Assembly: GCA_034003725.1 (NCBI GenBank)
Contig: JAVEYB010000017.1
Location: 1 to 54,573, forward strand
From: Candidatus Zixiibacteriota bacterium
GTDB lineage: Bacteria; Zixibacteria; MSB-5A5; GN15; FEB-12
Length of the DNA: 54,573 nt
Direction: 5' to 3'
This document shows, piece by piece, positions 52,137-54,573 of this stretch. The translations under genes were made by a program, and so were the position numbers. Position 1 is the first letter of the stretch. Each line of letters opens with the position of its first letter. The notes under the pieces are model-generated. The model searched no databases, was not told where the DNA came from, and saw only the letters and a program-made list of their open reading frames with translations.

Positions 52137-52185
52137 GGCAGGTCTGAAGACAGACCATCCCTGCCGTTGCTCCCGGTCTCTTTTT
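52137..52185 (+). terminator. possible terminator of the pst-phoU operon
   Basis: Inner stem GGTCTG-AAGA-CAGACC with an outer GGCA/TGCC pairing, followed after 14 bases by CTTTTTC. The distance from stem to T-run is longer than ideal. Confidence 0.4.
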
Positions 52186-52895
52186 CGTCGTACAAGTTTG
52201 GTGTCCTGCACGTTGCGGGGAAATGGGTTTGTTTTGTTATTTTTCGGGGGTCCCCATTTCTTCCCCTTCCCCTTATCAAGATATGCGGCATGGGAGTAAC
52301 CCATGTTTGAGCAGGATTTCGACAATCTGTCGCGATACAGAAGTACCATCATTTTTGCGCTCCGTGTGAGTCGGGTCTTTACTAAGGGGGGCCGGGCATT
52401 TTTTCCATCGAGGTGGTAGGGAAAGTGTGGGGGGGGATAGAGTTGTCCCACGGGAACCCACCTAGAAGGTGGGCCACCGGACGTGTCGCCCGCCCGCCCG
52501 CCACATGCGGCCTAGCACGTGACGCAACACTCGTGAGGGTTCGTGGCGCACGGGGACGTACGCCACGCACCGACAGAAGATGCCGGGTTCGAGGACGGAC
52601 CCGCCCTACGGGGACTGTCCGATCAATTCTCCCCGCTTTTGTTCCACCCACCACAAGTTAGCGGCCTGAACCACCAATTTATCAAGCAGAAATCGCCGTA
52701 CGTGACAAGTCGCGCAAGTCATTGCTCGGGCAGAGATTGTGTATGGAGTGTGCCTCCGCCTCCGACGTCGTGGGTTGGGTGGGTGGTGCACCGGGCATTG
52801 AAAGGCTAGGGAAACTGCGGGCGCTTTTTTCATTGCCCAATTGAATCCAACTCCTGATCTTCGCTGTATACCTTCTGACAATAGGGGAGTGACAT
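52186..52895. other. intergenic region, probable interspersed repeat sequence
   Basis: About 700 bases with no gene I can support. The first part has GGGGAAATGGGTTTGTTTTG and a T/G-rich run; the middle (about 52420-52660) is very GC-rich with small hairpins (CCCACCT-AGA-AGGTGGG at about 52464, GTGGCG...CGCCAC near 52541) and C/G triplet runs; the last part is mixed. Its composition is unlike both neighbouring genes. It looks like dispersed non-coding repeat material, but copy number cannot be seen from one window. Confidence 0.45.
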
Positions 52896-54219: not shown

Positions 54220-54258
54220 TATCTCACCGACCGCTGATCAGCAGTTATTCGGAGAAAA

Positions 54259-54573
54259 GCTCCCCCGGCTGGACTCGAACCAGTCCGCCGGTGACGGACT
54301 GATAAACAGTCAGCGTTTCGAATCGGGTAGAAAAAGAAAAGCTCCCCCGGCTGGACTCGAACCAGTCCGCCGGTGGCGGACTGATTAACAGTCAGCGATT
54401 GGAATCGGGTAGAAAAAGAAAAGCTCCCCCGGCTGGACTCGAACCAGTCCGCCGGTGGCGGACTGATTAACAGTCAGCGATTGGAATCGGGTAGAAAAAG
54501 AAAAGCTCCCCCGGCTGGACTCGAACCGGTCCGCCGGTGGCGGACTGATTAACAGTCAGCGATTGGAATCGGG
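54259..54573 (-). repeat. 82-bp tandem array with tRNA-Asn-like 3' part
   Basis: Units begin with GCTCCCCCGG at 54259, 54341, 54423 and 54505, exactly 82 bases apart; the fourth is cut by the window end. Units 2 and 3 are identical; unit 1 differs at four bases and unit 4 at one. On the minus strand each unit gives an anticodon arm GCTGA-CTGTTAA-TCAGT (anticodon GTT, Asn), a 5-bp CCGCC-ACC-GGCGG extra hairpin, a TTCGAGT T-loop with a short stem, and a 3' GGGGGAG acceptor-like end. A normal 5' acceptor strand and D arm are missing, and CCA is not encoded. The array probably continues beyond the window. Confidence 0.93.

Follow-up and report, generated by a model that had tools for sequence, protein, structure and literature searches.

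Tandem copies of the back half of a tRNA-Asn gene, marked by a hairpin, in a Zixibacteria genome and their possible origin in homing-endonuclease-like cassettes

The end of one contig of a Candidatus Zixiibacteriota genome raises the question of what a row of evenly spaced, incomplete tRNA-like units is and how it came about. The window, meaning the whole stretch of 54,573 nucleotides that was analysed, is exactly contig C17 of an assembly of 3.73 Mb in 35 contigs (99.5% complete, labelled G000 here), and the units occupy its final 321 bases, so that the contig end cuts the array.

An array of partial tRNA-Asn copies

When considered over the whole window, Tandem Repeats Finder reports this one tandem array only, with 97% matches and zero indels, and four tRNA-like parts can be told apart in it; the tandem units at 82-base spacing announced by the original prediction, which was made from the sequence before this analysis, are thus real. 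Their copy number is not fixed by the reported 3.9, because the array runs off the contig end. An assembly artefact, which the prediction had considered, is unlikely: similar arrays are internal to contigs in four other genomes (G055, G042, G050 and G107), so that an effect of the contig edge is not the cause of such arrays, and two decayed Asn units in the genome G001 are also internal to their contig. The features are as follows.

54253..54573, minus strand: whole tandem array, period 82, 3.9 copies, cut by the contig end (Tandem Repeats Finder)
54259..54314, minus strand: unit 1, last in the reading direction and most changed (sequence compared with the complete tRNA-Asn)
54284..54298, minus strand: hairpin of unit 1, TCCGTCACCGGCGGA, with one G-U pair, in place of CGGGTCG
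54315..54340, minus strand: linker between units, TTTTCTTTTTCTACCCGATTCGAAAC; between the other units it reads TTTTCTTTTTCTACCCGATTCCAATC
54341..54396, minus strand: unit 2, with anticodon arm, hairpin, T arm and acceptor 3' strand (sequence)
54366..54380, minus strand: hairpin of unit 2, TCCGCCACCGGCGGA
54423..54478, minus strand: unit 3, identical to unit 2 (sequence)
54448..54462, minus strand: hairpin of unit 3, TCCGCCACCGGCGGA
54505..54560, minus strand: unit 4, with a single T-stem change from CTGG to CCGG (sequence)
54530..54544, minus strand: hairpin of unit 4, TCCGCCACCGGCGGA

Read on the minus strand, a unit leads from the T-rich linker TTTTCTTTTTCTACCCGATTCCAATC, whose start resembles the T-rich stretch 3' of tRNA-Asn in relatives, through the anticodon arm with GTT (GCTGACTGTTAATCAG), the hairpin TCCGCCACCGGCGGA and the T arm (CTGGTTCGAGTCCAG) to the acceptor 3' strand and discriminator (CCGGGGGAGC). 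The complete tRNA-Asn of the genome, which sits on another contig (C10), has in the same part GCTGACTGTTAATCAG-CGGGTCG-CTGGTTCGAGTCCAGCCGGGGGAGCCA. Outside the hairpin the units are near-identical to it and are therefore part-copies of the host gene; this comparison bears out the proposed tRNA-Asn origin, including the GTT anticodon arm, T arm and acceptor 3' end on the minus strand, as well as the absence of the 5' acceptor strand and the D arm. The flanks stay in register with tRNA-Asn, matching positions up to 42 and from 50, and the seven variable-region bases CGGGTCG in between have been exchanged for a 15-bp palindrome, TCCGCC-NNN-GGCGGA, which in the window is TCCGCC-ACC-GGCGGA. The extra hairpin had been described as a 5-bp addition, and only its existence stands: it has six pairs and a 3-nt loop, and it replaces seven nucleotides instead of being merely added. 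Two details were seen correctly beforehand, namely that unit 1 retains the hairpin through a G-U pair (TCCGTC/GGCGGA) and that unit 4 has one altered T-stem pair. Three palindromes of the array are perfect, compared with about 0.01 perfect matches expected in the window when scaled from a shuffle control. The array consists of tandem copies of the back half of a tRNA-Asn gene, in which a small GC-rich hairpin has taken the place of seven bases of the tRNA.

A functional tRNA-Asn gene is ruled out, as there is no complete cloverleaf: ARAGORN finds 0 tRNA genes in the array, and Rfam gives no tRNA match for it even at E=10. The Rfam matches to ACAT, Ms_IGR-8 and CLRN1-AS1 are weak and were taken as chance. 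At 54227-54242 (minus strand), GCTGATCAGCGGTCGG may by eye be a decayed extra copy with the anticodon arm and the unreplaced variable region of tRNA-Asn, the resemblance being weak.

When units 1-3 are folded singly, the favoured structure is a longer hairpin into which the anticodon and T arms are drawn, so that the term D-armless tRNA suits the sequence of the units and not their predicted fold. In a comparison of eight diverged Asn units, 97.9% of cells keep the hairpin paired and 96.9% the anticodon stem; for the structure as a whole the figure is 91.1%, versus 16-46% in slid versions. Changes on both sides occur at four pairs, and the covariation score was reached by 8 of 500 shuffles. 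Units also fold better than shuffles, and hairpin pairing is kept while the loops vary. The hairpin is thus kept, or renewed, as a hairpin, in sequences so few and related that an RNA role is not proven by them. The pairing and the folding are what one would see if the units were transcribed as structured RNAs, e.g., as tRNA-Asn decoys for a tRNA-cutting toxin or a processing enzyme, with the array raising the dose. We regard such a role as unlikely, since no promoter consensus (and no terminator consensus) was found within the window array, the units of congeners are decayed, and the part-copies of relatives described below keep the D arm, the anticodon arm or the T arm and so have no common RNA shape.

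The tRNA-Asn locus in related genomes

The origin of the array can be approached through its relatives. In G001, a genome of the same genus (contig JAHLKV010000005.1, bacterium isolate MAG50), two decayed units built in the same way stand directly behind a complete tRNA-Asn, and one such unit stands behind tRNA-Asn in G002 and one in G012, the latter from another genus. A complete tRNA-Asn beside the array, which the original prediction had named as something to look for, is accordingly found within the genus, and the arrangement in G001 favours duplication from the adjacent tRNA over an independent D-armless tRNA. The same gene lies on the other side of tRNA-Asn in the present genome and in G001, G002 and G012, whose versions have 70, 57 and 49% protein identity, respectively, to that of the present genome. 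In their T stems, the units agree with the tRNA of the genome in which they lie, with CTGG/CCAG in G000 and TTGG/CCAA in unit 1 of G001 and in the better kept unit of G002; together with the 5' copies that carry the local promoter region (see below), this indicates that units were copied in place. In G002, similar sequence lies behind both Asn units (L005 C294 and L088 C348), and these flanks read like the end of a secreted-protein gene whose C-terminus carries a sorting domain, as though each unit had been duplicated along with its flank.

For the tRNA-Asn on C10 of the present genome, the CCA is encoded, and behind it come 1.2 kb without counterpart in G001 and G002; this stretch encodes a DUF2924 protein, and 118 bp of it are 100% identical in another genus. 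Beyond the units, no synteny was found between the window flank and the G001 flank, so that the original position of the array has to be inferred: it probably once lay directly behind the C10 tRNA-Asn, and an integrated element later separated the two, the joining sequence being absent from the assembly. Genes for tRNAs are classic landing sites of large integrases, and a serine recombinase gene adjoins the tRNA-Asn 3' end in G049 (L022, by Pfam), with two further loci (L018 and L026) looking the same by eye. The suggestion that the array is a recombination target is partly borne out: in the order, the 3' end of tRNA-Asn is a hot spot of integration, but the hairpin units are unlike att sites. 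That the units are scars of integrases, i.e., tandem att sites left by successive elements, is very improbable, even though the recombinase genes, the encoded CCA and the DUF2924-gene DNA absent from congeners are all in its favour, because att scars would keep a block of identity, the middle of which is broken by the hairpin in every unit, and because 5' part-copies with promoter regions do not fit.

The same hairpin and small GIY-YIG nucleases at several tRNA genes

Genome-wide scans by sequence pattern place the exact palindrome TCCGCCNNNGGCGGA at 12 sites of the present genome and the reversed pattern at 0. Eight of the 12 lie in tRNA part-copies and the other 4 elsewhere. Besides the 3 in the window array, 3 belong to a tandem array of period 58 bp that immediately precedes tRNA-fMet on contig C18 and whose units are composed of the acceptor 5' strand and D arm of tRNA-fMet with the D-loop segment CAGTCTG replaced, and 2 replace the same segment in tRNA-fMet copies on C10. 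The C10 copies also have a 14-bp version of the hairpin in place of the variable-region bases CCGAAGG, and form a 354-bp tandem with an ORF of the GIY-YIG type (Pfam PF01541), which is uninterrupted in this tRNA-fMet cassette and accompanied by the same hairpin. Three different 7-nt segments of tRNA genes have thus been exchanged in this genome for the same kind of hairpin. The 354-bp tandem is located at C10:1-700 (L046), and at the end of C18 (L051 1440-1836) stand the intact tRNA-fMet and the first part of the ORF; the two contigs are probably neighbours joined through the tRNA-fMet/GIY-YIG repeat, pieces of which both ends carry. An rRNA was dismissed as the reason why contig C10 ends there, since no rRNA match was obtained.

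The arrangement recurs beyond this genome. Since fixed palindromes were searched, the following counts are lower bounds and statistics on hairpin classes are biased; the genomes are mostly draft assemblies, and part of the copies were aligned to their tRNAs by eye, on the sequence as printed. Among 80 genomes of the order, 8 contain the palindrome followed by a T arm, with 12 matches in all against 0 for the reversed control; copies of tRNA-fMet or tRNA-Asn account for 11 of these, and the remaining one (G055) is in an unassigned tRNA-like context. A pattern for the fMet 5' part matched 13 times in 6 of 80 genomes, and one for the Asn anticodon arm 16 times in 8 of 132, both with 0 matches of the control; on inspection, Asn matches proved to be tRNA-Asn copies with an intact tRNA-Asn next to them, except for one G042 copy about 4.5 kb away. 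A phylum-wide scan added G083, from another family of the same class, with a tRNA-fMet part, a GIY-YIG ORF and a hairpin copy; its second match (L111) is not evidently a tRNA copy. In tRNA-Asp, it is the anticodon arm that has been exchanged for a hairpin (G058, G054, G056, G078 and G022). Across the class, then, part-copies of tRNA-fMet, tRNA-Asn and tRNA-Asp with a GC hairpin for a loop or an arm stand beside the intact gene. They often form tandem arrays with periods of 58-84 bp, namely 58 bp (this genome) and 74 bp (G055) at tRNA-fMet, and 82 bp (window), 84 bp (G050, G042) and 76 bp (G107) at tRNA-Asn. In G079 (L141), a tRNA-fMet copy has two adjoining hairpins, in the variable region and the T arm, and behind it follow a GIY-YIG ORF and two further hairpin copies.

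A decayed tRNA copied by slippage had been among the suggestions, and it describes the tandem and truncated state of the array correctly. It is incomplete, as decay does not account for the hairpin: in fMet, Asn and Asp copies, defined segments have given way to the same palindrome, often with a GIY-YIG ORF adjoining. The corresponding explanation, in which replication slippage multiplied a truncated tRNA pseudogene and the hairpin is incidental, may draw on the most changed unit lying at the edge and is nevertheless quite improbable, given that the same hairpin recurs throughout the class, in copies of three different tRNAs, while the controls have zero matches.

The GIY-YIG ORFs encode single-domain proteins of 80-90 aa, often on the same strand as the adjoining tRNA part-copies, which have the PF01541 domain and keep the conserved Tyr, Arg and Glu of the superfamily. 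At 12 of the 13 loci of the close group, a tRNA or a fragment of one lies 14-277 nt away on the same strand, as against 2 of 12 among remoter homologues (tRNA-Ser, within 200 nt). Those low-identity homologues, being mostly away from tRNAs, were set apart from the element; two of their genes (L071 and L076, in G014 and G035) have a 3' fragment of tRNA-Ser no more than 160 nt away, and tRNA-Ser is a possible further isotype of the system. In a tree of 32 GIY-YIG sequences, the seven Asn-locus proteins all fall into one clade (support 100/99), and the ten fMet-locus proteins into another (93/93), which includes a G002 protein whose locus shows no tRNA match. Both clades mix families and orders, and G042 and G050 hold nucleases of both kinds. 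Clades that track tRNA isotype are the pattern expected from target specificity. A Fisher test of hairpin class against clade was set aside, since many of the loci had been found by palindrome patterns.

Among the loci that carry an ORF, two builds, each the mirror image of the other, can be distinguished. In the first, a hairpin-bearing 5' copy is followed by the ORF and then by the promoter and intact tRNA (G046, G050 fMet, G066 and G067); in the second, the intact tRNA is followed by the ORF and a hairpin-bearing 3' copy (G022 fMet, G062 and G072). The 5' copies carry a promoter-like region similar to that of the intact gene in the same genome, and this duplicated tRNA promoter probably drives transcription of the nuclease. 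An endonuclease ORF is thus present at the tRNA-fMet of the present genome and at the tRNA-Asn of relatives; no GIY-YIG ORF adjoins the window array on its contig, and the assembly has no nuclease of the Asn type, only of the fMet type.

A candidate cassette and its nearest parallels

On balance, the window array is most likely one instance of a recurrent tRNA-gene element made up of homing-endonuclease-like cassettes. Such an element comprises an intact tRNA gene, at least one hairpin-substituted part-copy made in place and, where it is complete, a small single-domain GIY-YIG ORF between or beside them. The anatomy, recurrence, adjacency and isotype clades seen in the genomes would follow if the nuclease cut the tRNA gene and repair copied the cassette in, with one tRNA staying intact. 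The displaced part-copy would be left behind, its target segment overwritten by the hairpin, and would be neither a working tRNA nor a target. Unequal recombination between part-copies could then produce tandem arrays without an ORF, such as those observed, and the nuclease ORF may often be lost afterwards. The best reading of an array without its own nuclease is therefore that of a relic and amplification product of a cassette targeting tRNA genes. It rests on the units behind an intact tRNA-Asn in G001, G002 and G012, the share of palindromes in tRNA part-copies, recurrence with zero-match controls, proximity to tRNAs, isotype clades, copying in place and kept catalytic residues, with SegB-driven amplification and the fungal mobile ORFs, both described below, as precedents. 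Against it count a hairpin whose source it does not explain, the window array without nuclease ORF, an assembly without Asn-type nuclease and a protein not recognised as a known phage family; nor does it explain immunity, since the intact tRNA beside the nuclease still bears the presumed target. A more far-reaching claim, offered tentatively, is that of a new bacterial selfish element, in which isotype-specific GIY-YIG nucleases go together with a cognate hairpin that would replace the target and yield immune, amplifiable part-copies, the window array being an orphan.

The main rival makes the hairpin itself the active part, either as a short mobile palindrome or as the cognate site of the nuclease inserting into redundant tRNA copies much as small palindromic elements do, so that the GIY-YIG ORF would serve the hairpin instead of the tRNA gene. 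The Asn units of the genus, which have an fMet-type hairpin at an fMet-type position in an assembly with the fMet-type nuclease only, speak for this, as do the few exact palindromes outside tRNA copies and the pairing retained while loops vary. It remains doubtful in view of the concentration of palindromes in tRNA part-copies, the replacement of a defined segment each time (7 nt in three cases) rather than simple insertion, and nuclease clades that track tRNA isotype.

Several known systems resemble the proposed cassette in part. The rtT repeats behind E. coli tyrT are tandem and contain the tRNA 3' end, like the units described here; they differ in their length of about 178 bp, in containing only the last ~19 nt of the tRNA and in having no known hairpin substitution or nuclease. 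The UPF0213-type GIY-YIG proteins (structures 1zg2 and 1ywl) are single-domain and of similar size, whereas the remoter homologues in these genomes are mostly away from tRNAs and outside the fMet and Asn clades. SegB, a free-standing phage GIY-YIG homing endonuclease, drives the amplification of tRNA-Tyr in phage T6 (PMC13096335); here too a small GIY-YIG nuclease gene lies beside tRNA genes, and a tandem segment with a tRNA and a truncated nuclease gene is comparable to the 354-bp repeat on C10. SegB differs in that it belongs to a phage rather than a chromosome, a whole tRNA is amplified and no hairpin substitution is reported; our protein matches nothing in PHROGs up to E=0.1 and so was not placed in the SegB family, and no DNA similar to the array was found in plasmids or phages. 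The mORFs of fungal mitochondria are mobile ORFs with duplicated gene 3' ends (PMC3630166), in which an endonuclease ORF has inserted at a host gene, the duplicated part likewise keeps that gene whole and the displaced native part remains; in contrast with the present case, these are mitochondrial protein genes, the nucleases are mostly LAGLIDADG and the displaced part has no hairpin. Finally, Rickettsia palindromic elements and REP sequences are likewise short palindromes at many genomic places (PMC3767692, PMC3733652); they are dispersed, while the palindromes here, of 14-19 bp, are concentrated in tRNA part-copies and replace a fixed segment.

The literature searched yielded no account of small nuclease cassettes by which tRNA genes of bacterial chromosomes are duplicated and marked with a hairpin, and the set of hairpin-marked tRNA gene fragments is apparently undescribed so far. 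If the model holds, it would account for one kind of tRNA pseudogene and tandem repeat seen in uncultured bacteria, would point to small natural nucleases with tRNA-gene specificity, and would offer a parallel to the recently shown SegB-driven amplification of tRNAs in phages. The question of how a fixed segment of a tRNA gene gives way to a DNA hairpin also becomes open to direct test.

Elsewhere in the window, 52181-52436 is a dispersed repeat of 256 bp with 81.6% identity to a stretch of contig C11 (L047 1216-1471, opposite strand). The C11 copy adjoins a longer hairpin containing TCCGCCAGAGGCGGA, and beside it, from L047 1913-2032 onward on the reverse complement, run tandem hairpins CCGTGACCAAGGTCACGG at a spacing of 51 bp.
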